Part shown: positions 1,567 to 60,803 of the stretch, piece after piece
How positions within the stretch are numbered: position 1 is the first letter of the stretch
How the letters are laid out: each line of letters starts with the position of its first letter
NCBI RefSeq assembly: GCF_015831355.1
Contig: NZ_JADWYR010000001.1
Coordinates: 2,480,001-2,544,000 of the forward strand
Direction of reading: 5' to 3'
Source of the DNA: Panacibacter microcysteis
Lineage (GTDB): Bacteria; Bacteroidota; Bacteroidia; Chitinophagales; Chitinophagaceae
DNA length: 64,000 nucleotides
Position numbers and translations under genes: made by a program
Notes under the pieces: model-generated
The model's input: only the letters and a program-made list of their open reading frames with translations
What the model was told of the DNA's origin: nothing
Database searches by the model: none

Positions 1567-1625
1567 ATAATGCTGAACTTAACTGCATTGCTACTATCAA
1601 CACCTGTTGTGTCACTCACTTGTAC
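1567..1625 (-). repeat. Interspersed intergenic repeat, type A, reverse
   Basis: Core at 1604-1625 reads GTTGTGTCACTCACTTGTAC on the plus strand. The tail to its left, toward clpC, shares ATAGTAGCAATGCAG (minus strand) with the copies at 19782 and 50875. Confidence 0.85.
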
Positions 1626-1734
1626 TGCAGCAAATATGTGGGCACAGGGCAAACTGCCGGTGTTTTTTTCCTGGCTTCTGCCGGTGCGGAGAAACTACTA
1701 CCGCACGGCGTTTTCTGCCGCACACAGACCAACA

Positions 1735-1794
1735 GTACAAGAGTGCGACGCAACAGTTGGTGCCATGTAAAACGATAGCCCGGCCCATAAAAAT
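1735..1794 (+). repeat. Interspersed intergenic repeat, type B, forward
   Basis: Core at 1735-1756 is an exact GTACAAGAGTGCGACGCAAC plus AG. The tail ends in GCCCGGCCCATAAAAAT, about 50 bases before the thiolase start. Confidence 0.88.
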
Positions 1795-1845
1795 ATCTGT
1801 TACATACAACCGGTATCTGTTAACTTGCGCAGCTAAAATCAGCGC

Positions 1846-3039
1846 ATGAAACCTGTATATATAATTGATGCTGTAAGAACGCCCATCGGGCGTTATGGCG
1901 GTAAACTGAGTACAATAAGACCGGATGATTTGCTTGCGCACGCCATCAAAGCTTTGGTAAACAGGAACGATACCATAGACCTGAACGCCATTGAAGACGT
2001 TATAGCAGGAGATGCCAACCAGGCAGGTGAAGATAACCGCAACGTAGCCCGTATGGCTGCTTTGCTTGCAGGCTTGCCTGTAAGTGTTGCAGGTAATACC
2101 GTAAACCGTTTGTGTGCAAGTGGCCTGCAGGCAGTAATGGATGCAGCCCGTGGTATAATGTGCAATGAAGGCATGTTATACATTGCGGCAGGTGTGGAAA
2201 GTATGACCAGGGCACCTTTTGTAATGGCCAAAAGCGATGGCGCATGGAGTCGCAAAAATGAAATATATGACACTACTATAGGCTGGCGTTTTACCAATAA
2301 ATTTTTAGCTGACATGTATCACCCTTACTCCATGGGTGAAACGGCAGAAAATGTTGCCAAAAAATGGAACATCAGCCGCGAGGCGCAGGATGTTTTTGCA
2401 CTGGAGAGCCAGCAGAAATATTTTGCAGCGCTTAATGAGAGAAAATGGGAAGATGAAATTGTACCTGTAGAAATGGTGAACGACCGATTGATTACATGGT
2501 TTGCACAGGATGAACACCCACGGGAAACCTCCCTGGAAAAGCTTGCAGGCTTAAAGCCCGCTTTTGCAAAAGATGGAACAGTAACCGCGGGTAACTCAAG
2601 CGGTATTAACGATGGCGCAGCAGCCATGTTGCTGGCAAGTGAGGAAGCGGTAAAATTGTTTCAGCTGGAACCTATTGCACGGGTGGTAAGCATGGGTGTA
2701 GCCGGTGTAGATCCGGCCATTATGGGAATTGGCCCGGTACCTGCAACACGCAAGGCATTGAAGAGAGCCGGCATTGGTGTAGAAGACCTCGATCTGGTAG
2801 AGTTGAATGAAGCCTTCGCATCTCAGTCAATTGCCTGTATGCAGGAGCTTAAGCTGGCGCAGGAAAAAGTAAATGTAAATGGTGGTGCTATTGCACTCGG
2901 GCATCCGCTAGGTTGCAGTGGCGTAAGAATATCTGCCACACTTATTCATGAAATGTACAGAAGAAAAAGTAAATATGGTCTTGCAACCATGTGCGTAGGT
3001 GTGGGGCAGGGTGCCGCGGTAATTTACGAAGGACTGTAG
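1846..3039 (+). CDS. pcaF: Thiolase, 3-oxoadipyl-CoA thiolase / acetyl-CoA acetyltransferase family
   Basis: 397-residue thiolase that cleaves or forms 3-ketoacyl-CoA with CoA. Seen: nucleophilic Cys90 in NRLCASG, the GGAIALGHPLG histidine motif (His about 353), and the second catalytic cysteine (Cys383) in CVGVGQG near the C-terminus. The DTTIGWRF motif around residue 145 is typical of the PcaF/PaaJ group, which acts late in aromatic or phenylacetate catabolism; that assignment is inference. No other catabolic genes lie nearby, so a general acetyl-CoA acetyltransferase role is also possible. It stands alone between two terminators and converges on hisS. Confidence 0.85.
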   Translation: MKPVYIIDAVRTPIGRYGGKLSTIRPDDLLAHAIKALVNRNDTIDLNAIEDVIAGDANQAGEDNRNVARMAALLAGLPVSVAGNTVNRLCASGLQAVMDAARGIMCNEGMLYIAAGVESMTRAPFVMAKSDGAWSRKNEIYDTTIGWRFTNKFLADMYHPYSMGETAENVAKKWNISREAQDVFALESQQKYFAALNERKWEDEIVPVEMVNDRLITWFAQDEHPRETSLEKLAGLKPAFAKDGTVTAGNSSGINDGAAAMLLASEEAVKLFQLEPIARVVSMGVAGVDPAIMGIGPVPATRKALKRAGIGVEDLDLVELNEAFASQSIACMQELKLAQEKVNVNGGAIALGHPLGCSGVRISATLIHEMYRRKSKYGLATMCVGVGQGAAVIYEGL

Positions 3040-3045
3040 ATAAGC

Positions 3046-3074
3046 AAAAGCCCCGCGGAAAAGCGGGGTTTTTT
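3046..3074. terminator. Bidirectional terminator between thiolase gene and hisS
   Basis: CCCCGC-GGAAAA-GCGGGG stem with AAAAG on the left and TTTTTT on the right. It can end both the plus-strand thiolase transcript and the minus-strand hisS transcript. Confidence 0.88.
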
Positions 3075-3076
3075 GT

Positions 3077-4933: not shown

Positions 4934-4967
4934 CAAAGATATATTAGCCACAGGCTTTGCATTGCAA
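4934..4967 (-). promoter_or_regulatory. Bacteroidota-type promoter for phosphatase-hisS
   Basis: On the minus strand a TTG (4967-4965) is followed after 23 bases by TATCTTTG (4941-4934), which matches the TAnnTTTG -7 consensus of Bacteroidota sigma factor. Transcription would start about 10 bases before the ATG at 4916. The spacing is slightly longer than usual. Confidence 0.5.
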
Positions 4968-4972
4968 GTAAT

Positions 4973-5029
4973 TTTCAGGAGCCCGGCTGTAAAACAATTT
5001 TCAGCTTTCGTTGCGTCGCACTCTTGTAC
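4973..5029 (-). repeat. Interspersed intergenic repeat, type B, reverse
   Basis: Core at 5008-5029 contains an intact GTTGCGTCGCACTCTTGTAC. The tail to the left carries GAGCCCGGCTGT, toward the phosphatase start. Confidence 0.87.
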
Positions 5030-5270
5030 TGTATATCGTTGCGCAGCATCCAGGCCTGGTTTTCGTAAAGCAGCAGAGGCATTATTGCATTGCTTTTAAA
5101 AATCGCAACAAACTGTTAAGCCGTTGCCTCCGGATATTTTTATTTATGGATTTTTTGCTGGTTCAGCATCTCTTTCTTAATGTTGGTTGGATTGCTTAAT
5201 AAACACGCTTGTCTTTCCCCGGAAATAAGTCTGCACACGTGCGCTGGTAAAAGCTGAATTATTTGTTGCC

Positions 5271-5327
5271 GTACAAGAGTGCGACGCAACAACAGTTAAA
5301 AAGCATTCCTGTTGCCGGGTAAACAAA
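5271..5327 (+). repeat. Interspersed intergenic repeat, type B, forward
   Basis: Core GTACAAGAGTGCGACGCAAC at 5271-5290 is exact. The tail has GTTGCCGGGTAAACAAA, pointing to the gene at 5410. Confidence 0.86.
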
Positions 5328-5409
5328 CTACTATTCATAAGTTTAAAGGTTGTTAAAATCAGTCAGCATAGTCATTTATCACTTTCATTCATTTTGTAAT
5401 AAAAGACCG

Positions 5410-8937: not shown

Positions 8938-9528
8938 ATGGCACGTCCCGTAAGATTTAATATACATCCAAAAGAAGTAAACCTGCACGATACCGTAGCA
9001 ATCTCAGATATGCCGGAAGGTATGCAGGGCGATGGCTTCTTTGCAACAAAGCTGGAAAGCGTGGTTGGCCTGGCGAGAAAGAACTCCATATGGCCGCTGC
9101 CCTTCGCCACTTCCTGTTGCGGCATTGAATTTATGGCAACAATGGGTTCTCATTACGATTTGTCGCGTTTTGGTTCTGAGCGTCTTGGTTTTACCCCGCG
9201 CCAGTGCGATCTGCTGATGGTAATGGGCACAATTGCCAAAAAAATGGCACCTGTTCTAAGACAGGTTTACCTGCAAATGGCAGAGCCACGCTGGGTGTTG
9301 GCGGTAGGCGCCTGCGCATCGTCCGGCGGTATATTCGATTCTTATAGTGTGTTGCAGGGTATAGACCAGGTAATACCGGTTGATGTTTATGTGCCGGGTT
9401 GCCCGCCACGCCCCGAAGCTATCCTGGATGGCTTCATGCGTATACAGGATCTTGTGCACAACGAGAGCCTGCGCCGCCGAAACAGTGAGCATTATAAAGC
9501 ATTGCTCAACAGTTACGGAATAGAGTAA
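8938..9528 (+). CDS. nuoB: NADH-quinone oxidoreductase subunit B
   Basis: 196 residues. The four cysteines that bind cluster N2, the last Fe-S centre before quinone, are visible: the Cys60-Cys61 pair in ATSCCGIEF, Cys126 in VGACASSGG and Cys155 in VPGCPPRPE. It belongs to the peripheral arm of complex I. A type A repeat begins directly after its stop codon and separates it from nuoC by 192 bases, an unusually long gap for this operon. Confidence 0.97.
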   Translation: MARPVRFNIHPKEVNLHDTVAISDMPEGMQGDGFFATKLESVVGLARKNSIWPLPFATSCCGIEFMATMGSHYDLSRFGSERLGFTPRQCDLLMVMGTIAKKMAPVLRQVYLQMAEPRWVLAVGACASSGGIFDSYSVLQGIDQVIPVDVYVPGCPPRPEAILDGFMRIQDLVHNESLRRRNSEHYKALLNSYGIE

Positions 9529-9584
9529 ATTTTGTTACCGGCTGCGGCGCAAATGGCATCGCCTGTTGTGTCACTCACTTGTGC
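9529..9584 (-). repeat. Interspersed intergenic repeat, type A, reverse
   Basis: Core at 9563-9584 with one change (GTGC in place of GTAC). The tail starts immediately after the nuoB stop and includes TTACCGGCTG and ATGGCATCGC. Confidence 0.85.
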
Positions 9585-9720
9585 GTTCCTTTTTATGGCG
9601 GCTGCAGCGATCTTTTTCTGTAACAATGTAAGAGATCGGGTGTTGTAACAACAGAGTGCGTGAAGCTGGTCTTTATGAAAGAAAACATAACCTTTTGCTT
9701 TTAGAGCAGGGATTTAGCAT

Positions 9721-10323: not shown

Positions 10324-10358
10324 GGTTGGTTGTGCACTTGCCCAATAGAGAACAGAAA

Positions 10359-10421
10359 GTACAAGTGAGTGACACAACAAAAGCTTAATAGAAATTCAAT
10401 TGCTCAATACATAAAAATATA
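10359..10421 (+). repeat. Interspersed intergenic repeat, type A, forward
   Basis: Core GTACAAGTGAGTGACACAAC is exact at 10359-10378. The tail ends in ATACATAAAAAT, 8 bases before the nuoD start codon. Confidence 0.85.
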
Positions 10422-14846: not shown

Positions 14847-15890
14847 ATGACACTGCTTACTATAGACTGGGGCCTGGTAATTGAAAAGCTGGTATTGATA
14901 GCCATCATCATCACCGCATCACTTGTTATAGCCATGTATGCAACCTACGGAGAGCGTAAAGTAGCAGCCTGGATGCAGGATCGCCGTGGCCCAAACCGCG
15001 CCGGTCCTTTTGGTCTTTTGCAACCACTGGCAGACGGTTTAAAATTGTTCTTCAAAGAAGAGATCATTCCGAATACTTCGAACAAACTGTTATTCATTCT
15101 CGGCCCGTCCCTTGCCATGCTTACAGCAATGATGACCTGTGCAGTTGTGCCGTGGGGCGATCATATTGAATTGTTCGACAGGAAAATCAACCTGCAGATA
15201 GCCGATATTAATGTAGCCATTCTTTACATTTTTGCTGTGGTAAGCCTTGGAGTATATGGAATAATGATTGGTGGCTGGGCTTCTAACAATAAGTTTTCAT
15301 TAATGGCTGCCATGCGTGGCGCAAGCCAGGTGATCAGCTATGAATTACCCATGGGTCTTTCGCTGATTGCGTTGCTCATGATCACAGGCTCACTCAGCCT
15401 TAGGGAAATGGTAGACACACAAATTGCAGGCCACTGGAACATATTGTACCAGCCTATAGGTTTCCTGATATTCTTTGTTTGCGCACTGGCAGAGTGTAAC
15501 CGTGCACCGTTCGATTTACCCGAAGCAGAGAATGAATTGAACATGGGTTATCACCAGGAGTATTCATCTATGAAACTGGGGTTCTATCTTTTTGCGGAAT
15601 ACATCAATATGTTCATCAGCAGCGCAATTATGGCTACGTTATTTTTTGGCGGGTACGATGTGCCTTTCCTTGATGAAAGCACCTTATCACCAAATATTGC
15701 AGCCGTTATTGGCATAGCAGCGTTTCTGCTCAAGATTTTCATTTTCATTTTCGTATTTATGTGGATCAGGTGGACGTTGCCGCGCTTTCGTTACGACCAG
15801 TTGATGAACCTTGGGTGGAAGGGATTGATACCACTGGCTTTGGCAAACCTTATTATTACCGGCGCAGTAGTGCTGTACCTGCAACAATAA
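14847..15890 (+). CDS. nuoH: NADH-quinone oxidoreductase subunit H
   Basis: 347 residues with about eight membrane helices. Conserved loops are visible: ERKVAAWMQDRRGPNRAGPFGLLQPLADGLKLFFKE, the EYSSMKLGFYLFAEY acidic loop, and RWTLPRFRYDQLMNLGWK. It joins the peripheral and membrane arms at the quinone channel. It starts 6 bases after nuoG. A type B repeat begins right after its stop codon. Confidence 0.97.
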   Translation: MTLLTIDWGLVIEKLVLIAIIITASLVIAMYATYGERKVAAWMQDRRGPNRAGPFGLLQPLADGLKLFFKEEIIPNTSNKLLFILGPSLAMLTAMMTCAVVPWGDHIELFDRKINLQIADINVAILYIFAVVSLGVYGIMIGGWASNNKFSLMAAMRGASQVISYELPMGLSLIALLMITGSLSLREMVDTQIAGHWNILYQPIGFLIFFVCALAECNRAPFDLPEAENELNMGYHQEYSSMKLGFYLFAEYINMFISSAIMATLFFGGYDVPFLDESTLSPNIAAVIGIAAFLLKIFIFIFVFMWIRWTLPRFRYDQLMNLGWKGLIPLALANLIITGAVVLYLQQ

Positions 15891-15946
15891 TGGTGAGCCG
15901 GGCTGCAGTATAAGTATTAAGCTGCCGTTGCGTCGCACTCTTCAAC
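15888..15946 (-). repeat. Interspersed intergenic repeat, type B (TTGAAG variant), reverse
   Basis: Core at 15925-15946. On the minus strand it reads GTTGAAGAGTGCGACGCAAC, so GTACAAG is replaced by GTTGAAG. The tail GTGAGCCGGGCTGCAG directly follows the nuoH stop. Confidence 0.83.
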
Positions 15947-16243
15947 AGTTGGAATATAATTGGGCTGGTGCGAAGATGGAAGCAGCAAATGTGCCGGTTA
16001 CGAAACATGCTTTATTGATGAAATGTATGAACTCGGAAGAAGCCAGGTAAAACGGATCGCTGCAGTCGCCATAAAAGCAGAAAGCACAAGTGAGTGACAC
16101 AACAGGCGATGCCACAGCGTACAAATGACGGCTACCAAATAAAACAGTACGTGTGTAACAGATAAAATTGGCAGCTATAGTTTATAAAAATATTTTTGCA
16201 AACCTTTAGCCGGCGCTTACAGCAATGGCACCACATAAAACAT
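15891..16243. other. Intergenic region between nuoH and nuoI
   Basis: 353 bases inside the nuo operon. It holds a type B repeat in reverse orientation and a type A repeat in forward orientation, with cores 137 bases apart. No gene or other signal is recognised between them. Confidence 0.65.
16084..16145 (+). repeat. Interspersed intergenic repeat, type A, forward
   Basis: Core at 16084-16105 (GCAC in place of GTAC). The tail has GGCGATGCCA, then GGCTACCAAATAAAAC, about 100 bases before nuoI. Confidence 0.82.
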
Positions 16244-17880: not shown

Positions 17881-19785
17881 ATGGATAATTTAGTTTACCT
17901 GGTACCATTATTTCCTTTGCTAGGTTTTTTGATCAACGGTCTTTTCAGGAAATCGTTGTCGAAAGGCGCAATCGGTATAATCGGCAGTGGTTCTATTCTT
18001 CTTTCCTTTATCGTAAGTGTAGTATTATTTTCCGAGGTAAGATCAGGCGGCGGTTTCGTTAGCAACCTTTTCGATTTTATCAATGTGGCAGACTTCCAGA
18101 TCCCGTTTGCATTCCAGGTAGATGCCTTGTCTGCGTTATTCCTGCTTATTATTACAGGCATCGGTTTTTTAATACACCTGTACTCCACCTCGTATATGCA
18201 TGATGAACCTGCAGAGCATTTTGGCAGGTACTTCGCATACCTCAACCTCTTTGTATTCTCCATGCTGCTGCTGGTACTTGGTGCCAACTATGTTATCATG
18301 TTTATAGGTTGGGAAGGCGTGGGGCTTTGTTCTTACCTGCTGATTGGTTTCTGGTTTAAGAATAACAACTATAACTACGCTGCCAAAAAAGCCTTTGTAA
18401 TGAACCGTATTGGTGATCTTGGTTTTTTACTGGCTATTTTCTGGCTGCTGAATAAACTGGGTACTGCTACATACAGTGAAGTGTTTGATCTTGCAGATAC
18501 CCTTAGCCCGGGTGATGTAACCGCCATAACGCTGCTGTTCTTTGTAGGCGCTATGGGTAAAAGTGCTCAAATTCCTCTATACACATGGTTACCCGATGCA
18601 ATGGCTGGTCCTACCCCTGTTTCCGCCCTCATCCACGCCGCAACAATGGTTACAGCTGGTATATACATGATTGCAAGAAGTAATGTCTTATACTCTCTTA
18701 GCGAACTTACACAAACCGTAGTTGCGGTTGTGGGTCTTGCAACGGCTATATTATCTGCAACGATTGCGCTATACCAGAACGATATTAAAAAAGTACTCGC
18801 CTATTCCACGGTAAGCCAGCTTGGTTTTATGTTTCTTGCGCTGGGCGTAGGTGCTTACACAACAGGCGTCTTTCATGTCATGACGCATGCCTTCTTCAAG
18901 GCTTTGATGTTTCTTGGAGCAGGTTCTGTAATACACGCAATGGGCGGGGAGCAGGATATTACCAAAATGGGCGGTCTAAGCAAAAAATTGCCTGTTACCA
19001 CCTGGACTTTCGTAATCGGAGTTCTTGCTATTGCAGGTTTTCCTTTCACGTCAGGCTTTGCTTCAAAAGATGAAATACTGATAGCAACGTACGCACACAG
19101 CCCGGTTTTGTTTTACCTGGCCTGTTTTGCTGCATTGCTCACTATGATATATATGTTCCGCCTGATGATGCTTGTTTTCTTCGGCGGCTTCAGGGGCACG
19201 CATGAGCAGGAGCATCATCTGCACGAATCACCCAGACCAATGACTATTCCGCTGGTTATATTGGCCATACTGTCTTTGGTTGGTGGCGCTATTCAATTCC
19301 CCGAAATGTTTGGCGGTCACCCTTTTTTCAATGAATATCTTTCACCGGTGGTACCTGCAGAGGCACACGAGATTGAAAATATCCATACAGTTGAATGGGC
19401 GCTTTTTGGCGGTACTGTGGTAGCGTTGATTGTTGTGTATGCAGCCGCACGTAAGTTCTTTGCGGTAAAGGCATTCGATGGCACTTATACCGGCATCAAA
19501 AAAGTGCTGGCAGACAAGTGGTATATCGATGAGTTGTATGATGCAATTATCGTAAAACCTTTGAACGCACTGGCCGGCTTTCTAAAATCTGGCATAGAGA
19601 AATTTATCGATGGCATTGTAAACGGTACAGGCAGGTTTGTAAATTATTCATCAAGACAACTGAGGCTGTTGCAAAGTGGCCAGGTGGGCAGTTATGTATT
19701 ATTCATGGTATTGTCTATTGTAGTATTGTTTATTGTCTTCTGGCATCAGCAGGAGATCGTTGGTTTTTTACAGAAGATTTTTTAG
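17881..19785 (+). CDS. nuoL: NADH-quinone oxidoreductase subunit L
   Basis: 634 residues from the ATG at 17881; a TTG three codons earlier is ignored. It is an antiporter-like subunit at the distal end of the membrane arm. Seen: FIGWEGVGLCSYLLIGFW, KSAQIPLYTWLPDAMAGPTPVSALIHAATMVTAG, and a discontinuous helix with KKVLAYSTVSQLGFM. A long C-terminal stretch contains the lateral helix. A type A repeat overlaps its last bases. Confidence 0.97.
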   Translation: MDNLVYLVPLFPLLGFLINGLFRKSLSKGAIGIIGSGSILLSFIVSVVLFSEVRSGGGFVSNLFDFINVADFQIPFAFQVDALSALFLLIITGIGFLIHLYSTSYMHDEPAEHFGRYFAYLNLFVFSMLLLVLGANYVIMFIGWEGVGLCSYLLIGFWFKNNNYNYAAKKAFVMNRIGDLGFLLAIFWLLNKLGTATYSEVFDLADTLSPGDVTAITLLFFVGAMGKSAQIPLYTWLPDAMAGPTPVSALIHAATMVTAGIYMIARSNVLYSLSELTQTVVAVVGLATAILSATIALYQNDIKKVLAYSTVSQLGFMFLALGVGAYTTGVFHVMTHAFFKALMFLGAGSVIHAMGGEQDITKMGGLSKKLPVTTWTFVIGVLAIAGFPFTSGFASKDEILIATYAHSPVLFYLACFAALLTMIYMFRLMMLVFFGGFRGTHEQEHHLHESPRPMTIPLVILAILSLVGGAIQFPEMFGGHPFFNEYLSPVVPAEAHEIENIHTVEWALFGGTVVALIVVYAAARKFFAVKAFDGTYTGIKKVLADKWYIDELYDAIIVKPLNALAGFLKSGIEKFIDGIVNGTGRFVNYSSRQLRLLQSGQVGSYVLFMVLSIVVLFIVFWHQQEIVGFLQKIF

Positions 19786-19836
19786 TAACCAGCTGCATTG
19801 CTACTATGTAGCTTCGGTTGTGTCACTCACTTGTAC
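19782..19836 (-). repeat. Interspersed intergenic repeat, type A, reverse
   Basis: Core at 19815-19836. The tail TAACCAGCTGCATTGCTACTAT starts at the nuoL stop and closely resembles the tail of the copy at 1567. It has no forward partner before nuoM. Confidence 0.84.
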
Positions 19837-19938
19837 GGTTGGTTCAATACCCGGCAAGTGCCACGTTCGCCAAGGCATTCACAACTGTTTGCGGTGGCTG
19901 GCAGCAGGCAATAAAACTACAAGCGTAAAGCAAAAGAT

Positions 19939-22796: not shown

Positions 22797-22998
22797 CCAC
22801 TCAAACCAATTGTTTTCCATCCGTGTTATTTTTAAATGCAAACCGCTGAATGGCTTTACCTTTATAAGCATTGTACAGGCTGTTGCATTGTAGAAAGCGA
22901 TATTATATCAACTATTATACAGGCAGCACTTTCGTTGCAGACGTGGTTTTTTGAGCAGCAATATATTGAGTGGTAGCATCTGTTCGTGCAAAGCAGGT

Positions 22999-23057
22999 TT
23001 AATTATTGTCCCGGCAGTAGTTTTCATGGCATCGCCGGTTGTGTCACTCACTTGTAC
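22999..23057 (-). repeat. Interspersed intergenic repeat, type A, reverse
   Basis: Core at 23036-23057, exact GTTGTGTCACTCACTTGTAC. The tail has GTCCCGGCAGTAG and ATGGCATCGC and points to nuoN, about 200 bases away. Confidence 0.85.
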
Positions 23058-23230
23058 GTTCGGAACTATTTTCAGCTGAAGCGCACTGCATATGCATGTA
23101 CCGCAGGTTGGTGAGACGGTGTATTTTGATTACAGCATAGTTCTGCGCGGGCATACCTGCTTACAAGCTATATAATTTGCTCTTAAAATCTTCGCTTTGG
23201 TCTTCGCGTTTGCTCATTTATCATTCACCG

Positions 23231-23288: not shown

Positions 23289-23301
23289 TCTATATTGCAC
23301 T

Positions 23302-36414: not shown

Positions 36415-36469
36415 GCTTTGAATTTTCAATCTTCGCTTTCTCAGATTTTCAAATTATTTTCGCAGCATT

Positions 36470-41342: not shown

Positions 41343-41402
41343 AGATTTTATGAGCCAGGCACCAGTACATATGGCATCGCCTGTTGCGTCGCACTCTTGT
41401 AC
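41343..41402 (-). repeat. Interspersed intergenic repeat, type B, reverse
   Basis: Core at 41381-41402, exact. The tail AGATTTTATGAGCCAGGC begins at the first base after the sulfatase stop. The core ends 9 bases from the stop of the converging TPR gene. Confidence 0.88.
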
Positions 41403-41411
41403 TGCTGTACA

Positions 41412-43496: not shown

Positions 43497-43601
43497 GCAA
43501 TACCTGATTGCCAGTTAATGTTTGCCGGTAAGTTCTTTGGTAACGAGACTACACTGGTTTTTTTCGCTTCATTCTTCGCTTTGGCTGAGTAGTGTGTTGC
43601 A

Positions 43602-43657
43602 GTACAAGAGTGCGACGCAACGAAGCTTAATATTGTTCCAAATGCCTGGTTCCAAAA
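43602..43657 (+). repeat. Interspersed intergenic repeat, type B, forward
   Basis: Core GTACAAGAGTGCGACGCAAC exact at 43602-43621. The tail ATGCCTGGTTCCAAAA ends 2 bases from the MoxR stop. A second motif, CGCTTCATTCTTCGC, lies 23 bases before the core. Confidence 0.86.
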
Positions 43658-43659
43658 AA

Positions 43660-44640
43660 TTAATTACGAATATTTAACCTGCTCAATCTTGCCAGTTCAC
43701 TGTCAAGTATAGTTGCAAGTGCCTTTTGTTTTGCTTCTTTGTTCCTGTATATAAGCCGGTGGTCCAATACGGGAATTGTAAGTGTTTTTATGTCGTCTTC
43801 TGTAACAAAGCTTCTGCCGTTTACCAGTGCAAATGCTTTTAAACATTTTAAAAAGGTAATGCCGCTACGTGTAGAAGCCCCAAGGATAATATCGTTGTGT
43901 TTACGTGTGCCCCATACGATATTGCGTACTGCTGTAATGATCTCTTCGTGTATGTATACTTTTTCTGTTTCATGCTGCAGGAACAATATTTCTTCCATGC
44001 TCAGCACCTGTTCTATATGTTGCAGGTTGTTTTGTATACCCAGGTAATCTTTGTATATATCCAGTTCGGTTGCTTCATCAACATAGCCAAAGATGATCTT
44101 AATAAAAAAGCGATCAAGCTGTGCTGCGGGCAATGGATAAGTACCTTCCATTTCAACAGGATTTTGTGTTGCAATAGTAAAGAACAGGTTTTCCAGCTTA
44201 TAAGTAATATCTCCCATTGTGATCTGGTTTTCGGCCATACATTCCAGCAGGGCAGACTGAACTTTTGGTGAAGCGCGGTTTATTTCGTCTGCCAGCAACA
44301 CATTGCAGAACAGTGGTCCTTTTTTAAAGATGAATTCTTTCTGCACATCATCAAAAATATGAGATCCGATAAGATCCATTGGTAAGAGATCGGGTGTAAA
44401 CTGTATACGTTTAAAGTTTGCTCCATGCTGATCTGCCGAGGCAATGCTTTGTGCCAGTGTTTTGGCCATAACGGTCTTTCCTGTACCAGGGTTATCTTCC
44501 ATTAAAATATGGCCTTTTGCAAGAAGGGCTGTCAATATAAACTGTATCTGTGCTTTTTTGCCACGTATAACTCTTTCGATATTGTCTATCAGTCGCTGAA
44601 TATTGTTTAATGCCTGTTCCAGTTGAATTTCCTGCTCCAT
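43660..44640 (-). CDS. MoxR family AAA+ ATPase
   Basis: 326 residues. Walker A NPGTGKTVMAKTLA (about residue 55), Walker B NVLLADEINRASPKVQSALLECMAENQIT and sensor 1 FFTIATQNPVEMEGTYPLPAAQLDRF are all present, followed by the AAA lid. MoxR proteins act as chaperone-like ATPases with vWA/DUF58 and transglutaminase partners, both encoded just upstream. The gene begins two bases after the transglutaminase gene ends, so translation is coupled. Confidence 0.94.
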   Translation of the reverse strand: MEQEIQLEQALNNIQRLIDNIERVIRGKKAQIQFILTALLAKGHILMEDNPGTGKTVMAKTLAQSIASADQHGANFKRIQFTPDLLPMDLIGSHIFDDVQKEFIFKKGPLFCNVLLADEINRASPKVQSALLECMAENQITMGDITYKLENLFFTIATQNPVEMEGTYPLPAAQLDRFFIKIIFGYVDEATELDIYKDYLGIQNNLQHIEQVLSMEEILFLQHETEKVYIHEEIITAVRNIVWGTRKHNDIILGASTRSGITFLKCLKAFALVNGRSFVTEDDIKTLTIPVLDHRLIYRNKEAKQKALATILDSELARLSRLNIRN

Positions 44641-47267: not shown

Positions 47268-47427
47268 TTGTTATTGTTTAATGTGCCGTATACCTTACTC
47301 TTAAGTGTTGACGAGGTATGTTGCCTGTGTTATCTGATCTCCAATTTCTTCTTGCAGGTGAAATGCTGTACAAATTTTTTTAGACGTTGCTGTAACCTGA
47401 TCGCTATCGCTCCATAGCGGACAAGGC

Positions 47428-47480
47428 GTACAAGTGAGTGACACAACGAAGCCTGGCACTTGTTCCATTGCCTGCCTGAT
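47428..47480 (+). repeat. Interspersed intergenic repeat, type A, forward
   Basis: Core GTACAAGTGAGTGACACAAC exact at 47428-47447. The tail points to the DUF58 stop at 47483. It sits inside the MoxR gene cluster. Confidence 0.84.
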
Positions 47481-47482
47481 AA

Positions 47483-48853
47483 TTATATAACCATTGTTTT
47501 ACTGTACTTTTCCAGCATGGCCTCTATTCTTCTTTCGTTCTGCATAACCTTCGGTCTTAGTAAAGACAATTGCCACTTTGATTTGTACACGTCGAGCTCA
47601 TTTTTTTCGGCCTGTACAAAAAGCCATTTGAGTATGCCTGTAAAATAACTATAGTGCAGGCTTCTGCTAAGCTTTACAAATACAATGACGGTATTGCCGC
47701 CAACTGAGTCCAGCATGTTTTGCAACTCATCTGCTATACTAAAAGACGATACAATAACCAGTGATGCATCTTTGTTGTTTACAAACTCTTTTAATGCTTT
47801 ATCGTTTTGCCATTTACTGGTGGTAATGGCATATTGAACCATTTGCGCATGGTCATTGAAATGTTTAACGGGGGTTTGCTGGTCCTGTATAAATTTCAAT
47901 TCAAAACCCTGCTTTTGCAGTTGCTGATAAATGCCCCACAAAACCGTTTTGTAATAGTTGAGAAAATATATTTCTGCTGTGGGGCTACCGGCAATATCAA
48001 AACCTGTATAAAACGAAGGGTAGATATATGCATGTGATGCATAGGGATCGAGCACTTCAGGAATACGCACAACAAGCTCTTTGTTTTTAGCATATACTTT
48101 CCACACTATGCGGCGCACATCATCATTGTCTTCAAAATTTTTATAGTTGATGTATTCACCTTCTACCCGCTTCAGTTCTTCGATTCTTGTAGCAGTATCT
48201 TCTGTCTTGCGCGGTGTAAGCTGTACATTCTTTACCGGCGGTGCGAAGGGATGTGTATGAAACCGATCCTGTACAGGCAATGAGACTGTAAAGGAGAAGA
48301 ACTGGAAAAAGTCTTCGAAATAAACGATCAGTTTTTGTACATGGTATTCTTTTATTTCGGGCAGCTTCCATTCGTAGTCGCCGGAAAAACTGGTGGAAAA
48401 AAGCTGTTGTTGTTTTGCCTCAGCCAATAAAAATTTATCTGAATAAAGGTTATGATCGTATTGCAAACGAAGTTTGATAAAACCAAGCAATGGCTTTACA
48501 ACAGGGTTTACTGATATATGAATCTTTTGTGCAGGATGGTTGTTGTGGAGCGCCGGTAATGTTTTGATGGATACGTTGATGTGATTGCTTCTTTTTTTCG
48601 CCAGGAAAATAAGGAATGAAATAACCACCGAAAGCAGAGCCACCCATAGTATAATGATAAGAAACCATGTGCCGGTTTTAACGAGCAGTTGTAAAATAGC
48701 CGTAAAGGAACTTTCAGGTGCAAGTAACCTGTTATGCAGCCAGTAATTTGCAAATACCAGCCCCACCGTAAACAAGATAAAGTAAAAGGTAAATGGTATG
48801 AAGAAAACGGCCGGTTGTGCAAGGCCGCGGATATTTTTGAATAGTCTGCCCAT
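47483..48853 (-). CDS. DUF58 domain protein
   Basis: 456 residues. Two membrane helices at the N-terminus (FYFILFTVGLVFANYWL and TGTWFLIIILWVALLSVVISFLIFL) are followed by a beta-rich region. The DUF58 core has GEYINYKNFEDNDDVRRIVWKVYAKNKELVVRIPEV, where the family's D-R-IxW pattern is seen, and a vWA-like C-terminal part. It is the first gene of the DUF58-transglutaminase-MoxR set on this strand. A 215-base gap with a repeat separates it from the next gene. The family is linked to MoxR-assisted assembly of envelope complexes. Confidence 0.87.
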   Translation of the reverse strand: MGRLFKNIRGLAQPAVFFIPFTFYFILFTVGLVFANYWLHNRLLAPESSFTAILQLLVKTGTWFLIIILWVALLSVVISFLIFLAKKRSNHINVSIKTLPALHNNHPAQKIHISVNPVVKPLLGFIKLRLQYDHNLYSDKFLLAEAKQQQLFSTSFSGDYEWKLPEIKEYHVQKLIVYFEDFFQFFSFTVSLPVQDRFHTHPFAPPVKNVQLTPRKTEDTATRIEELKRVEGEYINYKNFEDNDDVRRIVWKVYAKNKELVVRIPEVLDPYASHAYIYPSFYTGFDIAGSPTAEIYFLNYYKTVLWGIYQQLQKQGFELKFIQDQQTPVKHFNDHAQMVQYAITTSKWQNDKALKEFVNNKDASLVIVSSFSIADELQNMLDSVGGNTVIVFVKLSRSLHYSYFTGILKWLFVQAEKNELDVYKSKWQLSLLRPKVMQNERRIEAMLEKYSKTMVI

Positions 48854-50672: not shown

Positions 50673-50736
50673 GGTAATTTTTTTGTAGCCAACTCTGGTA
50701 TTTCATGGCATCGGCGGTTGTGTCACTCACTTCAGG
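50673..50736 (-). repeat. Interspersed intergenic repeat, type A, reverse
   Basis: Core at 50715-50736; the outer end is changed (CTTCAGG in place of CTTGTAC). The tail has ATGGCATCGGC and TTTTTGTAGCCAACTCTGG, toward the VOC gene start. Confidence 0.78.
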
Positions 50737-50874
50737 GTTCGGTTGTTATGGCGGCTGCAGCGTTCCGGCAGTGCGGCATGTTTGTATAGCAAGCCTGGAT
50801 CTTTTGCTATATCATTGCCAAAGCAGGTTGGGCATATACACTGCAAGATAGCCTGTGCTGCAATACTTGTTGCA

Positions 50875-50931
50875 GTACAAGTGAGTGACACAACAGGTGC
50901 CGATAGTAGCAGTGCAGCCAGGGCCACAAAC
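50875..50931 (+). repeat. Interspersed intergenic repeat, type A, forward
   Basis: Core GTACAAGTGAGTGACACAAC exact at 50875-50894. The tail GATAGTAGCAGTGCAGCCAGG is nearly the reverse complement of the tail at 1567. Confidence 0.87.
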
Positions 50932-54769: not shown

Positions 54770-54977
54770 ATATGTTATTTATGCATCATTTGGCAAAAAG
54801 AACGCCAGCAGGTATTATACAGCACAAATGAAAAGCGTGTGTACTTTTTTCATCACTTTGGGTAAGCGTAATTTTAAAAGTTTGTTATATACGCTCAACG
54901 CCCGGTCAGTTACTGAGCCTGTAACAAAGCGTTGTTGCTCGCTTCATTCTTCGCGTTGGCCTAATAAAGTTCCCACC

Positions 54978-55036
54978 GCTGAAGAGTGCGACGCAACAGG
55001 TGTTGCCATGCATTCCAATGCCGGGCCCATAACATT
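54978..55036 (+). repeat. Interspersed intergenic repeat, type B (TTGAAG-like variant), forward
   Basis: Core at 54978-54999, reading CTGAAGAGTGCGACGCAACAG after the first base. The tail AATGCCGGGCCCATAACATT ends at the barrel gene stop. A CGCTTCATTCTTCGC motif precedes it. Confidence 0.82.
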
Positions 55037-55955
55037 AAAAACTAAAAGACACATGCACCATAAACCTGTCTTTTGCTTTTACCCTGTTGCCGGCCAGCGT
55101 TTGCGCCAGCGGAGATTGATAATTGCCACCGAAAGCAATGTTTTTGATATTGCATTCTACGCCTAAAATACCCATCATGCTGTAACCCCCGCTCTCGTCT
55201 ACAAAGTGTTTACGTGCATTCAGGTCTTTTTGTGCAGTCTCGTACATAATACCCGCGTTTGGTGCGATGGTTAGTTTGTTTTTGATGTTGAACTTATAGT
55301 AAGCAAGTACATTGCCTGTCAATTTATTGCCATAGCGGTAATCATATTTGTTTGCAGTATTTATTTTATAGCTGACGTTGGTGTTGATGCCTGCGTCCTG
55401 CAGACGCACATCATACATAGCATTGACCGTAAAATCAACACTGCCGGTGCCAAGCTGAAACGTATTTTGTGTGTTTTGAGCAATGTTGGCATCTGTAGGG
55501 TCGTAAGTTCCAACAGGCAGTTTGATGCCGCCACCTACCCAAAGCGACTGAGCAAAACGTTTGTCGCCAATTGTTTTTTGGCGGTCAAGTAATTTAAAAT
55601 AGCCAAGCACAGCAATATCTCCCATACCACTTTTCGATGTTGTTTTACCCTGGTTTAGCCGCTCGTTAAAGTTTACGGGAACAAAACCCATTATGCGAAA
55701 ACGCTTACCAATATTAAATGCACCCCACACTTCTGCAGTCTGGTATATTTCCTGGCTGGTAAGGTAACTTACACTTCCGTCTGCACTAATGTGTGTTGTT
55801 AATCCTTTGTGCTGGTACCGTAAGCCGATAAAGCGTTTTTTAAAATCGGGCAAAATACCCAGGTAGTAGCTGCCCACTCCGCAGCCGCAAATATCGCAGG
55901 CAAGAAGATTGCCGGCTACCAGTAACAATACTGTAAGCGTGATAATTTTTTTCAT
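55035..55955 (-). CDS. Outer-membrane beta-barrel protein with N-terminal CxxCxC motif
   Basis: 306 residues. Signal peptide MKKIITLTVLLLVAGNLLA is followed directly by Cys20 and the motif CDICGCG (Cys20, Cys23, Cys25). The rest shows alternating amphipathic strands (RFIGLRYQHKGLTTHIS, AEVWGAFNIGKRFRIMGFVPVNF, GDIAVLGYFKLL) ending in a terminal Phe (MVHVSFSF), the usual barrel signal. The Cys motif could bind metal, in keeping with its upstream neighbours MbnP, MbnH and YHS protein; this is inference. It is the last gene of that minus-strand series. Confidence 0.78.
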   Translation of the reverse strand: MKKIITLTVLLLVAGNLLACDICGCGVGSYYLGILPDFKKRFIGLRYQHKGLTTHISADGSVSYLTSQEIYQTAEVWGAFNIGKRFRIMGFVPVNFNERLNQGKTTSKSGMGDIAVLGYFKLLDRQKTIGDKRFAQSLWVGGGIKLPVGTYDPTDANIAQNTQNTFQLGTGSVDFTVNAMYDVRLQDAGINTNVSYKINTANKYDYRYGNKLTGNVLAYYKFNIKNKLTIAPNAGIMYETAQKDLNARKHFVDESGGYSMMGILGVECNIKNIAFGGNYQSPLAQTLAGNRVKAKDRFMVHVSFSF

Positions 55956-55959
55956 ATTT

Positions 55960-56021
55960 AATTAGTTGGTTACCGGCAACAGTAACACAGATTGAGCTCC
56001 TGTTGCGTCGCATTACGTTCA
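55960..56021 (-). repeat. Interspersed intergenic repeat, type B, reverse, decayed
   Basis: Core at 56000-56021: CTGTTGCGTCGCA is intact, the outer part is changed. The tail TTGGTTACCGGCAACAGTAAC starts 5 bases from the barrel gene start. Confidence 0.7.
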
Positions 56022-58160: not shown

Positions 58161-58277
58161 TGCAAAATTTTTATGGTGTGTTTTGTTGTTCTTAAATAGT
58201 TGTATGCAGTAATCATTCATGCCCGGTACAGATAAAGCATGTACAAAGGCTCCGCTTTGTTCAGAAAAGTTCCTGCC

Positions 58278-58336
58278 GTTGAAGAGTGCGACGCAACAGA
58301 AGTTTAACCAGGGTACAAGAGCCGGGTTCATAAATA
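58278..58336 (+). repeat. Interspersed intergenic repeat, type B (TTGAAG variant), forward
   Basis: Core at 58278-58299, preceded by AAAGTTCCTGCCGTTGAAG. The tail GAGCCGGGTTCATAAATATT overlaps that of the next copy. Confidence 0.82.
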
Positions 58337-58392
58337 TTTATTTACCGGCTGTTGATACTTTCATCAGCTCCTGTTGTGTCACTCACTTGTAC
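58334..58392 (-). repeat. Interspersed intergenic repeat, type A, reverse
   Basis: Core at 58371-58392, exact. The tail TTTATTTACCGGCTGTTG meets the tail of the preceding forward copy: the only tail-to-tail pair without a gene in between. Confidence 0.85.
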
Positions 58393-58458
58393 GCTTTCGC
58401 CCTGGTCAGCAGCGATGCTGCATGTAGTCATCGTTGCGGGCATAGTCTCTGTGATCAG

Positions 58459-58645: not shown

Positions 58646-59017
58646 TTAACCAATACAGGGAGGATGAAAGATTGCTGATGAGCGGTGTATGGGTTTGCCC
58701 TCATTGTAAACAGCAAATTGCTGCAATGATTCCTGTGAAACGATGGTTACTGAAGGGTAAAAATTTTTGGAAGAAATTACTTCGAGTTTGTTTTCTGCTT
58801 TTCTATCCGGGTTAGACTGATCTTTTTTGCCCTCGCTGTCTATTTTTTTTACCATCTGGCAATGACCGTTACAATGAAGCTGCGGTTTGTCTTTGTTTTC
58901 GCAGTTTGCAGCAAACACAGTGGTATTAAGGTAATAGTCTGCAACAATAACAGCATTGCTGAATGTCTGCATCATAAAAATGACCAACATGAAGCTTGCT
59001 ACTACCTGTTTCAACAT
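58646..59017 (-). CDS. Small secreted Cys-motif protein (CNGHC family)
   Basis: 123 residues from the ATG at 59017 (MLKQVVASFMLVIFMMQTFSNAVI, a signal or membrane anchor). The motif around Cys39, Cys49 and Cys53 (NCENKDKPQLHCNGHCQMVKKI) recurs in small Bacteroidota proteins, as I remember the family, and could bind metal. The rest is charged, then beta-like. It heads the minus-strand series that continues to MbnP and MbnH, which supports a metal-related role; this is inference. Confidence 0.65.
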   Translation of the reverse strand: MLKQVVASFMLVIFMMQTFSNAVIVADYYLNTTVFAANCENKDKPQLHCNGHCQMVKKIDSEGKKDQSNPDRKAENKLEVISSKNFYPSVTIVSQESLQQFAVYNEGKPIHRSSAIFHPPCIG

Positions 59018-59021
59018 GCCG

Positions 59022-59029
59022 CAAAGATA
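59022..59029 (-). promoter_or_regulatory. TAnnTTTG box next to the CNGHC protein start
   Basis: Minus-strand TATCTTTG followed by CGGC and then the ATG at 59017. If it is a true -7 box, transcription starts at or very near the ATG, giving a leaderless or very short-leader mRNA. No upstream TTG is found at the usual spacing. Confidence 0.35.
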
Positions 59030-59102
59030 ATAGCAGCAAATTATTAAAAAATGATTTTCGGCAGGTTGAGGCAAAAAATTGTCTTTCGGTATAATTATGT
59101 CA

Positions 59103-60596
59103 TCAAAATAATACACCAATCAGCAGGTAAATAATCGACATGAAAAATAGTATTACCAAAAGAGGCAATATAAAACGCAGCCATGTTTTATAACTGACAT
59201 TTACCATGGTAAGCGCAGGCAGCACAAGGCCTGTAGGCGTAATAATGTTCATAATGCCCATGCCAAAGAGGTATGCGTTTACGATGTGGAGGTTGTCCAT
59301 GCCTATCATAACGCCAAGTGGTGCAATGATGGGCATGGTCAACACAGCCATGCCAGATGATGAAGCAATGAATATGCTTAAAAAAAGGTATAAGACAAAT
59401 ATGCTTATGATGAACAGTGCCGGAGGCATGCCCTGTATAATGCCTGCGGCATAATACAGTATAGAATCACTTATATGGCCATCGTTGAGAATGATGGTAA
59501 CGCCGCGGGCAAAGCCAACTATGAATGCAACAGACAAGAGGTCTTCTGCACCACGGATAAATTTAGCAACAAATGTTTTTTCGGGCGTACGTATGATGAG
59601 CGCCAATAACAGTGAAGATGCAAAAAACAATGCACTCATTTCCAGCAGCCACCAGCCTAATGCCACCACACCATATACCAGCATGCCAAAGGTTAAAGCA
59701 AAAAGTAACAGAACAAATTTATCGCGAAGGCTTAGTTCATTGTTGTCGTTATTTTCCGTAACGGTGAATTTTGGCTTCACGTCTCCATCAAACCTGCGCA
59801 CAAAAGAGCAGGAAGGATCACGCTTTACCTTTTTGCCGTAATAAAGGATATAGGATATCGTGACTGCCGTGCAAAGTACAAACATGATAATGCGGCCACC
59901 TGTGCCCGCAACCCAGTTGATGCCTGCCGCGTTTGATGCAATGATAACAGAGAAGGGACAGGTGACCGCCGCCATGGTGCCGATAGTGGAGCCTAAGAAT
60001 ATAACAGCCACGGGCACCAGCAGATCGAAGCCGGCTGCGAGAAATATGGGTACCAGCAGGGGATAGAATGCTATTGTTTCTTCAGCCATACCATAACTGC
60101 TGCCGCCTAATGCAAACAGGAAAGTGAAAATGATGATAAGGCTGTTTTCTTTGCCTGTCATTTTTCTCCCAAGAGCCTGAATGCCTTTTTCCAGCGCACC
60201 TGATTCGTAAAATATTGCGATAAAACCTCCGGTAGCAAGTATAAATAAAATAATGTCTATGGTGTCGTACATGCCCTTGAATGGCGCCTGGAGAACACTG
60301 ATAATGCCTTGCCTTTCTGCTGGTTCATGGTTATAAGTACCCGGCACCGCAACGGGTTTGCGAATATCGCCACCGGAAAATTTTTCCAAGGCTATTTTTA
60401 TGCCAAGACTGTCAAGCGTTTCTTGCGTGGCAGGCAACGTAACTGCAGCTTCTTTCGAAGTAAGTACAAAATGGTTTTCCCCGTATGATAGCCTGTTGTA
60501 AGAACCTGCAGGCACAAACCATGTAGCAATTGCAGCAAGCACAATTACGATCATAATAATGGTTAACGGTGCAGGGAAACCACGCTTTTTTGCCAT
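59103..60596 (-). CDS. YfcC family membrane transporter
   Basis: 497 residues from the ATG at 60596 (MAKKRGFPAPLTIIMIVIVLAAI); 14 upstream codons in frame are unlikely. About twelve helices are visible. Characteristic segments are WFVPAGSYNR near the N-terminus, IDIILFILATGGFIAIFYESGALEKGI, FLFALGGSSYGMAEETIAFYPLLVPI and ASSSGMAVLTMPIIAPLGVMIGM. The family belongs to the DcuC/ArcD-like C4-dicarboxylate or amino-acid exchanger group; the substrate cannot be told. It is a single gene. Confidence 0.88.
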   Translation of the reverse strand: MAKKRGFPAPLTIIMIVIVLAAIATWFVPAGSYNRLSYGENHFVLTSKEAAVTLPATQETLDSLGIKIALEKFSGGDIRKPVAVPGTYNHEPAERQGIISVLQAPFKGMYDTIDIILFILATGGFIAIFYESGALEKGIQALGRKMTGKENSLIIIFTFLFALGGSSYGMAEETIAFYPLLVPIFLAAGFDLLVPVAVIFLGSTIGTMAAVTCPFSVIIASNAAGINWVAGTGGRIIMFVLCTAVTISYILYYGKKVKRDPSCSFVRRFDGDVKPKFTVTENNDNNELSLRDKFVLLLFALTFGMLVYGVVALGWWLLEMSALFFASSLLLALIIRTPEKTFVAKFIRGAEDLLSVAFIVGFARGVTIILNDGHISDSILYYAAGIIQGMPPALFIISIFVLYLFLSIFIASSSGMAVLTMPIIAPLGVMIGMDNLHIVNAYLFGMGIMNIITPTGLVLPALTMVNVSYKTWLRFILPLLVILFFMSIIYLLIGVLF

Positions 60597-60746
60597 AAAA
60601 AAAATTATCTGACAAATTAAAGTAAATAGTTGTAACAATATGATCGTGAGTTATTGACGGCGAAGCTGCGGATACACATAACTCATCTTACAATCTTATG
60701 CAAAGGATGGCTGGCATGCAGTATCGTTGTTGCCAGTGGTTTTGCA

Positions 60747-60803
60747 GTACAAGAGTGCGACGCAACGAAAGCACAATGCTTATTCTATAGCCAGGTGCCG
60801 GCA
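60747..60803 (+). repeat. Interspersed intergenic repeat, type B, forward
   Basis: Core GTACAAGAGTGCGACGCAAC exact at 60747-60766. The tail ATAGCCAGGTGCCGGCAATAAC points to the alpha-2-macroglobulin start at 60895. Confidence 0.85.

Follow-up and report, generated by a model that had tools for sequence, protein, structure and literature searches.

Element copies in the window and their architecture

The window, a 64-kb stretch of the Panacibacter microcysteis genome, carries many copies of a repeat element (Table 1). Each element spans about 80-90 bp and contains a 20-bp core that hardly varies. The core, GTACAAG-WGWGY-GAC-RCAAC, is non-palindromic and reads in one direction. It starts with GTAC, with GCAC, GTTG and GCTG as common variants, and is preceded by about 25-30 bp and followed by about 37 bp built from a few recurring words. 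As the whole architecture is copied, the copies must have spread as units. Two types, A and B, are distinguished by four of the 20 core positions and by their flanks, and both were recovered in the window and genome-wide, in agreement with an earlier sequence-only reading. At up to 3 mismatches, 13 cores of type B and 10 of type A were found in the window, against none in 100 shuffles; raising the limit to 4 mismatches brings the number of copies to 25, of which 14 are type B and 11 type A. Searching with a profile of the entire element gave 27 matches at E<0.1, comprising these 25 copies, a degenerate copy and a doubtful fragment. The 26 copies counted in the sequence-only reading are reached if the degenerate copy is included; otherwise there are 25 good copies.

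Table 1. Positions of the element copies in the 64-kb window.
Feature	Coordinates	Strand	Core	Core mismatches	Remark
Copy, type A	1565..1645	-	1606-1625	exact	profile match; close inverted pair with copy 1710..1798
Copy, type B	1710..1798	+	1735-1754	exact	profile match
Copy, type B	4967..5053	-	5010-5029	exact	profile match
Copy, type B	5244..5332	+	5271-5290	exact	profile match
Copy, type A	9522..9613	-	9565-9584	1	stop codon region overlapped by tail
Copy, type A	10325..10420	+	10359-10378	exact	profile match
Copy, type B	15885..15978	-	15927-15946	2	profile match
Copy, type A	16052..16148	+	16084-16103	1	profile match
Copy, type A	19774..19869	-	19817-19836	exact	profile match
Copy, type A	22997..23083	-	23038-23057	exact	profile match
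Copy, type B	23198..23293	+	23231-23250	3-4 by reference core	degenerate core; profile match
Copy, type B	26129..26228	+	26164-26183	1	profile match
Copy, type A	28924..29011	-	28962-28981	exact	profile match
Copy, type B	31188..31277	+	31214-31233	exact	profile match
Copy, type B	35470..35561	-	35509-35528	1	stop codon at 35472 reached by tail
Copy, type B	36329..36417	+	36355-36374	exact	profile match
Doubtful tail-like fragment without core, may be chance	38692..38736	-			profile match, E 0.023
Copy, type B	41342..41426	-	41383-41402	exact	profile match
Copy, type B	43575..43665	+	43602-43621	exact	profile match
Copy, type A	47401..47489	+	47428-47447	exact	profile match
Copy, type A	50675..50732	-	50717-50736	4	profile match
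Copy, type A	50851..50931	+	50875-50894	exact	profile match
Copy, type B	54950..55039	+	54978-54997	3	stop codon at 55035 reached by tail
Degenerate copy	55958..56012	-		broken core	profile match, E 5.5e-8
Copy, type B	58249..58341	+	58278-58297	2	tail abuts tail of copy 58330..58419
Copy, type A	58330..58419	-	58373-58392	exact	profile match
Copy, type B	60713..60797	+	60747-60766	exact	profile match

Folding of 40 element sequences revealed no consensus pairs, single copies gave z values of about 0 against shuffles in four folds, and the two flanks were not linked by any of the 60 strongest column couplings. A perfect stem of at least 9 bp is present in 1 of 291 element copies, and no terminal inverted repeats were seen by eye in single copies. 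Rfam 15 yielded no match above the gathering score in the window, and a permissive Rfam search of positions 1500-5400 yielded two chance-level matches, both outside the elements. Neither a GT[AG]G nor a CGTC tag was found at the foot of the element, where the core starts with GTAC.

Abundance, strand-wise spacing and persistence

At up to 1 mismatch the host genome contains 1,386 cores, types A and B together, distributed over the two strands without bias (675 versus 711). Type B cores alone number 833 at up to 2 mismatches, with none in the reversed control, and the element profile gave 320 matches in 864 kb of the host genome, with none in the reversed sequence at equal threshold. Counts in the shuffled and reversed controls thus do not match those in the real sequence. 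The core was found in 198 of 394 Chitinophagaceae genomes (0 to 2,053 copies each), and copy number swings within a genus from 0 to hundreds or more (0 and 288 in genus g4; 3 to 1,256 in genus g98). The repeat family noted in the window is therefore real and larger than was described, its copies there being part of a genome- and family-wide set, and the argument against a CRISPR array stands, with kilobase-scale spacing and copies on both strands. Several copies were also seen on contigs with genes for phage terminase, portal, DNA polymerase or primase-helicase.

In the 864 kb, 297 of 300 cores lie outside predicted genes and three inside, so cores are far from equally common within genes. The statement that the copies are always between genes holds for the window cores, judged by predicted genes, but not for the tails, several of which run a few bases into the neighbouring gene. 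The tie to gene direction is weak, with 104 antisense and 79 sense copies between tandem genes.

The new result of this follow-up is the strand-specific spacing, which was analysed in five genomes of three genera with expected counts from 300 simulations. On the same strand, 2 pairs were observed below 1 kb against 159.8 expected (lowest simulation 116), 48 at 1-2.5 kb against 149.5 (lowest simulation 112), and 177 at 2.5-4 kb against 160. The corresponding counts on opposite strands were 138 against 159.5, 147 against 147.0, and 177 against 160.6. Same-strand copies stay about 2.5 kb or more apart, and opposite-strand copies ignore each other. In each of the five genomes, the commonest 500-bp class of same-strand gaps fell within 2.5-4 kb; by coefficient of variation alone, genome G070 (0.65) was not below its lowest simulation (0.64). 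The spacing had been described as irregular, which is correct with the strands pooled, whereas on each strand it is more regular than chance. Close direct pairs showed no enrichment of decayed cores (17/49, versus 134/396 at 2.5-8 kb); the weaker member of such pairs had fewer profile bits (p 0.009), a difference that is confounded by genome. In the analysed stretches, 28 direct pairs closer than 2.1 kb surround ordinary-looking genes, by eye without a Y1 gene, and direct pairs below 500 bp are absent away from Y1 loci.

Comparison with the relative G058, whose genes are about 70-80% identical to those of the host, matched 15 of 25 testable window copies with identical type and direction (core at least 75% identical; mean core identity 0.92). 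Over all 19 programme matches in this relative, the two flanks were 36% and 45% identical in ungapped comparison. Cores persist near-intact at matching sites while the flanks have drifted.

Alternative explanations

An unlikely explanation, with a real chance of being right nonetheless, is a non-autonomous mobile element, single or in inverted pairs, spread by a putative transposase with strand-specific insertion exclusion, so that positions are old and copies linger. The spread of the whole architecture as units, the variable copy number within genera, the recurring spacers of close inverted pairs in G058, the copies in phage genomes and the lack of decay in close direct pairs are all consistent with it. 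However, idle copies should decay, whereas the cores at matching G058 sites are near-intact despite drifted flanks, and no constant mobile-gene neighbour was found in low-copy loci, which were examined at the element positions only. Target immunity is not known to be strand-specific.

The sequence-only reading had likened the repeat to REP/BIME families dispersed by RAYT transposases and had seen none in the window, which is consistent with the Y1/RAYT matches listed for the host genome, all of which lie elsewhere. A REP/REPIN-type repeat could be moved by a resident RAYT or another Y1/HUH enzyme, with same-direction pairs avoided as the enzyme excises the intervening DNA. The RAYT model NF047646 has matches in 320 of 394 genomes, the avoidance includes A/B pairs, as in a left-end/right-end system, and close direct pairs occur at several Y1 loci: L252 (1.1 kb), L254, L257 (1.0 kb), L290 (223 bp, one member being a truncated head) and L291 (277 bp, by eye a local duplication). 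Some Y1 loci in dense genomes have copies, and many have none. Inverted pairs without close direct pairs also resemble REPs, in which, according to the available part of one source, inverted pairs are typical and close direct (head-tail) pairs absent or rare (PMC3733652). Nevertheless, RAYT presence does not track copy number across genomes. Matches occur in zero-copy genomes such as G001, G002, G003 and G352, and the element-bearing G024 (190 copies), G072 (88), G052 (51) and G073 (24) gave none in these first-look searches, which may miss divergent RAYTs. The best relatives of the host RAYT come from element-rich and element-free genomes alike. A perfect hairpin (stem of at least 9 bp) lies within 700 bp at 6 of 10 Y1 loci and is absent at 4, whereas it is nearly absent from the element, which shows no fold and no arm covariation. 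Caution is needed with the missing hairpin, since the repeats of subclass 2.6 RAYTs in Bacteroidetes are unusual, with weak structure and no GT[AG]G, as far as the available part of the source describes them (PMC6006769). Excision is further opposed by the direct pairs that enclose ordinary genes and by cores decayed no more in close direct pairs than elsewhere. The REP/RAYT reading, which we consider quite unlikely, therefore mostly fails for want of a hairpin, a GTAG tag and a tracking RAYT; the direct pairs at Y1 loci and the REP-like pair pattern leave some chance of a remote link.

It is improbable that a translocating nuclease or a defence system reads the element as a polar stop signal or as a self-mark, in the manner of a very long Chi, with phages using copies to pass as self. 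Polarity and coverage of each strand every few kilobases are what a one-way translocase needs, and the phage-gene contigs with several copies would fit. But among 22 loci near relatives of three phage proteins, 15 have no copy, so the phages do not need the element, and the core is absent from half of the family. There is a slim chance that the element helps to structure the chromosome, for instance as a polar barrier or a loop anchor, which would suit the even per-strand spacing and the absence of a tie to transcription or to the replication strand; sites known to act in this way, unlike the element, number tens to hundreds per genome and are not patchy.

A transcription terminator or RNA regulatory element, in which inverted pairs would form hairpins, is very unlikely. 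Tails facing a stop codon lie 29-51 bases away in 82 of 153 copies, placing the tail end at the stop, versus 11 of 128 for heads, and convergent regions are the most occupied (49 copies in 53 regions; 46 in 96 divergent regions). Single copies are without a fold or Rfam match, however, have no firm direction relative to genes, and occupy most boundaries (216 single versus 52 paired). That the spacing merely reflects selection against direct repeats deleting genes by homologous recombination is already disfavoured and scarcely credible: the same-strand avoidance weakens with distance, but A and B differ in core and flanks and yet the avoidance is equally strong for direct pairs of unlike and of like type (12 of 40 direct pairs unlike at <2.5 kb; 166 of 474 unlike at 4-10 kb), so homology-driven deletion does not explain it, and the 28 close direct pairs persist.

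A proposed directional DNA signal and its relation to known systems

A directional DNA signal is suggested by the way in which copies are spaced along each strand and persist, and the earlier label of a non-autonomous or regulatory repeat is too loose. We propose, with a probability of roughly 0.4, that the repeat is a polar sequence recognised in duplex DNA and maintained so that each strand is covered, and that its most likely function would be in DNA exchange. A putative sequence-specific protein would read the core in one direction and act each time on a few kilobases of DNA. Another same-direction site within this range would bring no gain, and DNA with no site close enough would be disadvantaged, resulting in one-directional coverage of each strand. 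By analogy with the DNA uptake sequences of Neisseria and Haemophilus, which come closest in behaviour, an orientation-reading uptake or recombination signal seems the best candidate. Unlike these sequences, the signal is long and would have to spread by copying of DNA blocks through recombination or transposition rather than by point mutation. In Neisseria, the part of the literature at hand reports that uptake-sequence spacing matches the recombined fragment length and that new ones arise by recombination (PMC2397512).

ComEC is present in the host and 37 of 40 other genomes, but it does not discriminate bearers (20/21 element-rich, 18/20 element-free). For the type IV pilus/type II secretion ATPase (PF00437), the 41 genomes gave only short partial matches and no full-length protein, so the route by which known DUS/USS systems take up DNA is missing. 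Uptake in H. influenzae is independent of orientation in the available account (PMC1939737), and strand-wise spacing is thus not a known uptake-sequence property. Further observations oppose the proposed reading: 196 of 394 genomes have no copy; close direct pairs lack the excess core decay that simple redundancy would predict; and some phages bear the element, which uptake selection does not predict.

The findings suggest that the element is a genome-wide signal read by a putative DNA-handling machine. If the directional reading is true, much of one bacterial family maintains such a signal at intervals of a few kilobases along each strand, and the process reading it would be new for Bacteroidota. 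The spacing provides a physical clue to the putative machine, to which it assigns a direction and a reach of about 2.5-4 kb, the 20-bp core could be used as bait to isolate the reader, and the patchy copy number among close genera offers natural controls. Even for a selfish repeat, kilobase-scale strand-specific self-avoidance would still need explaining. More tentatively, the element may represent a polar genome mark of a new class, in which a long signal read by a protein fills each strand independently at quasi-regular few-kilobase spacing and is common to bacteria and some of their phages. It may then be the first such sequence-specific DNA exchange or self-recognition system in Bacteroidota and without a type IV pilus.

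Like MITEs and other non-autonomous repeats, the element is copied as a unit, intergenic and patchy between species, but it is long-persisting, with a conserved core, drifting flanks and no terminal inverted repeats by eye. Chi sites are polar, genome-wide, required every few kilobases in each direction and present in most strains of a species. The element shares the polarity, the genome-wide distribution and the spacing per direction, whereas Chi is far shorter (5-8 bases) and lies mostly inside genes. With REP/BIME/REPIN families, as described in the available part of PMC3733652, it shares high copy number, intergenic position often beside stop codons, inverted pairs and few head-tail pairs; it differs in being non-palindromic, in its GTAC start and in having no tracking RAYT, and its same-strand avoidance reaches 2.5 kb, a range not known for any REP. 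Compared with DUS/USS, the element has a 20-bp core within an 80-90-bp unit, whereas the uptake motif has about 9-12 bp and is common in genes too; about 99% of its copies are intergenic, versus 65% of H. influenzae USS in ORFs (PMC1939737, available part), its spacing is strand-specific, and no type IV pilus ATPase was found (41 genomes). From what the available parts of the sources describe, DUS/USS resemble it in having short, non-palindromic cores of identical sequence at about 1,000-2,000 per genome, at least two dialects, even spacing and some inverted pairs at gene ends (PMC1939737, PMC7811141, PMC2397512).

Structure and gene-relative placement of the repeat

At up to three mismatches, the window contained 13 type B and 10 type A cores, while 100 shuffles gave none. 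Allowing four mismatches raised the number to 25 copies, and a whole-element profile, trained on this genome and less sensitive in other genomes, added a degenerate copy and a fragment of doubtful status. The 26 copies counted in the sequence-only reading are therefore reached with the degenerate copy. That reading also took the repeat to be genome-wide, and the 5.2 Mb genome indeed holds 833 type B cores at up to two mismatches (0 in the reversed control) and, with both types pooled at up to one mismatch, 1,386 cores, split 675 to 711 between the strands. The density of 0.37 per kb in our 40 stretches of this genome exceeds the genome average because they were mostly picked where exact B cores were listed.

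The anatomy was derived from 291 copies across 864 kb of this genome. The core consists of GTACAAG followed by TGAGTGACACAAC in type A and AGTGCGACGCAAC in type B, one type B form carrying T at position 8. A few recurring words are conserved around the core, on its upstream side over about 25-30 bp and on its downstream side over 37 bp, with the end close to GCCGGG..CATAAA. Full covariation links positions 12 and 16 (176 copies have C with G, 115 have T with A), so that a small dyad, GYGACRC, is preserved in both types. Couplings of the flanking columns are local, with none of the 60 strongest column couplings joining the upstream and downstream flanks, and no consensus base pairs emerged when 40 copies, drawn from the window, viral contigs and other genomes, were aligned. 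An RNA element was rejected, as folds were absent and no Rfam family was found; a coding peptide was dropped on internal stops and shifting frames, several frames being read by eye.

With genes called by a simple in-house predictor, 297 of the 300 cores are intergenic, in agreement with the placement proposed earlier. The orientation counts omit 19 of the 300 copies, which have no neighbour gene in their stretch. Copies with the tail facing a stop codon lie 29-51 bases from it in 82 of 153 cases, indicating that the tail ends at the stop; the same distance was found in 11 of 128 copies whose head faces a stop. Convergent regions are the fullest (49 copies in 53 regions) and divergent ones the emptiest (46 copies in 96 regions), and tandem gene pairs hold 104 antisense versus 79 sense copies.

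Strand-wise spacing

Adjacent copies mostly alternate in direction, in 237 of 290 cases in this genome, 43 of 49 in its congener G058, and 68 of 89, 37 of 46 and 31 of 40 in the family members G070, G063 and G148, respectively. This alternation results from a strand-specific avoidance. Over the five genomes and 300 simulations, same-strand pairs closer than 1 kb numbered 2 against 159.8 expected and those at 1-2.5 kb 48 against 149.5, with expectation reached farther apart, whereas opposite-strand pairs numbered 138 against 159.5 and 147 against 147.0 over the same two ranges. Within 500 bp, the five genomes have 101 head-to-head (-+) and 9 tail-to-tail (+-) pairs and not one on the same strand. 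The commonest 500-bp class of same-strand gaps falls within 2.5-4 kb in all five genomes, and all 48 such gaps in G058 lie within 1-5.5 kb. The coefficients of variation of these gaps are 0.41, 0.27, 0.65 (G070), 0.52 and 0.47 versus 0.76-0.82 simulated, below the lowest simulation in all except G070. The null for the distance counts placed copies randomly between genes and allowed two per intergenic region; in that for the coefficient of variation, two copies never share a region by chance and close pairs were retained. Both place copies in the same intergenic regions, so that operon layout is built in, and the avoidance appears under both. Therefore, with avoidance on the same strand, indifference between strands and regular gaps, the copies on each strand behave as a set that avoids itself and is independent of the set on the other strand.

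If direct repeats were lost through homologous deletion, pairs of unlike type should be spared. They are avoided too, making up 12 of 40 close direct pairs and 166 of 474 distant ones, and deletion is thus disfavoured. Lethal excision is unlikely as the cause, since the 28 direct pairs closer than 2.1 kb enclose ordinary-looking genes by eye and decayed cores are in no excess at close pairs (17 of 49 versus 134 of 396 others). Pair-level target immunity was rejected, as it predicts that opposite-strand neighbours are also kept apart, which is not so.

Distribution, persistence and viral copies

The core occurs in 198 of 394 genomes of the family (166 of the 331 better genomes), with copy numbers from 0 to 2,053. 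The maximum is in G058, followed by G207 (2,048), G148 (1,716), G327 (1,256), G070 (1,239) and G063 (1,050). Variation within genera is wide, one (g4) showing 0 and 288 copies and another (g98) 3 to 1,256. The exact B core matched at least 119 stretches of named genomes, and all 80 matches listed are titled Chitinophagaceae or Chitinophagales/Bacteroidetes MAGs; genera among them are Segetibacter, Foetidibacter, Limnovirga, Lacibacter, Flavisolibacter and Pinibacter. Cultured strains with this core include Segetibacter koreensis DSM 18137 and Foetidibacter luteolus. The layout of the element is unchanged in low-copy genomes. By eye, one-mismatch cores there are about as many as exact ones in the listed places and this genome has mostly exact cores, which suggests decay following loss of a reader, the postulated protein recognising the core.

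G058 is considerably diverged (78% DNA identity in a MutS2-like gene, 69-81% in aligned blocks). The programme matched 19 of the 25 testable window copies there; four were set aside with cores below 75% identity, and the remaining 15, whose cores reach 75% identity or more (mean 0.92), all kept type and direction. The flanks over the 19 matches are 36% and 45% identical, ungapped. Spacers on the head side recur within each genome but are not the same in both, and element positions around one gene turn over beyond the genus. An inverted block was also observed (see table); a rearrangement hot spot is not claimed because other synteny breaks have no full copy.

The degenerate core matched exactly in 26 viral-contig stretches. 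Some of the contigs encode phage proteins (terminase and portal, DNA polymerase or primase-helicase) and bear up to four copies in 12-22 kb. The phage contigs L296-L299, L203/L304 and L210/L309 carry several copies between phage genes, and in one phage all four are on the coding strand. Of the 22 loci examined near relatives of three of these phage proteins, 7 had a copy (four of these being one phage) and 15 had none. One copy queried against plasmid and phage record collections gave no match.

Coordinates of individual features, on the window or on examined loci
Feature	Sequence	Positions	Observation
Perfect CCGCAGAGTC...GACTCTGCGG hairpins	L290 (G058)	1415-1444, 2306-2335, 2502-2531	Ring a RAYT-like gene; probably a true REP family of that enzyme
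Split element core	L262 (this genome)	2111-2325	Apparently split by an insert carrying a ACAGAGTT...AACTCTGT hairpin
Tail half of the split element	L262 (this genome)	324	Found again here
GCCCGGC-TAT-GCCGGGC hairpin, then T-rich DNA	Window	about 31280-31310	Directly after the 31214 copy; resembles an ordinary terminator by eye
Block inverted in G058	Window	1789-5031	Both ends at or adjoining element copies
Synteny break	Window	near 37561-37648	No full copy

Comparison with transposase-dispersed repeats and uptake signals

A REP/RAYT origin was tested with PF01797, NF047646 and the RAYT of this genome, and was largely rejected, as RAYT/Y1 presence does not track element copy number. NF047646 matches 320 of 394 genomes, element-free ones included, and does not match G024, G072, G052 and G073, which have 190, 88, 51 and 24 copies; it matches nothing in 74 genomes, and 7 of the 20 listed among them bear copies. 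The resemblance to RAYT-dispersed REP/BIME families suggested before is thus mostly unsupported, with the direct pairs at Y1 loci running counter. In dense genomes, Y1/RAYT-like genes at five loci (L252, L254, L257, L290 and L291) lie beside or between close direct pairs. Such pairs, avoided elsewhere, count against reading the element as a polar signal. Inspection of the sequences revealed split or truncated copies in the direct pairs at L290 and L262, and the L291 pair is a local duplication; no split, truncated or duplicated copy explains those at L252, L254 and L257. By eye, none of the 28 close direct pairs in the analysed stretches encloses a Y1 gene. Perfect hairpins were found near 6 of the 10 Y1 loci examined. 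As for competence genes, 38 of the 41 genomes tested have ComEC and none has a full-length pilus-type ATPase.

The element family is real and abundant, and apparently undescribed. In the openly licensed literature, where absence is weak evidence, the core sequence retrieved only a 13-base match in an unrelated plant paper, and we found no report of a Chitinophagaceae REP or intergenic repeat and nothing joining uptake signal sequence, DNA uptake sequence and Bacteroidetes. REP and DUS families each have a defining feature that was tested in the element and found lacking, so membership of either is not shown. In its behaviour the element works like a polar DNA signal, for which we would place uptake or exchange first among the candidate functions and a mobile element second.
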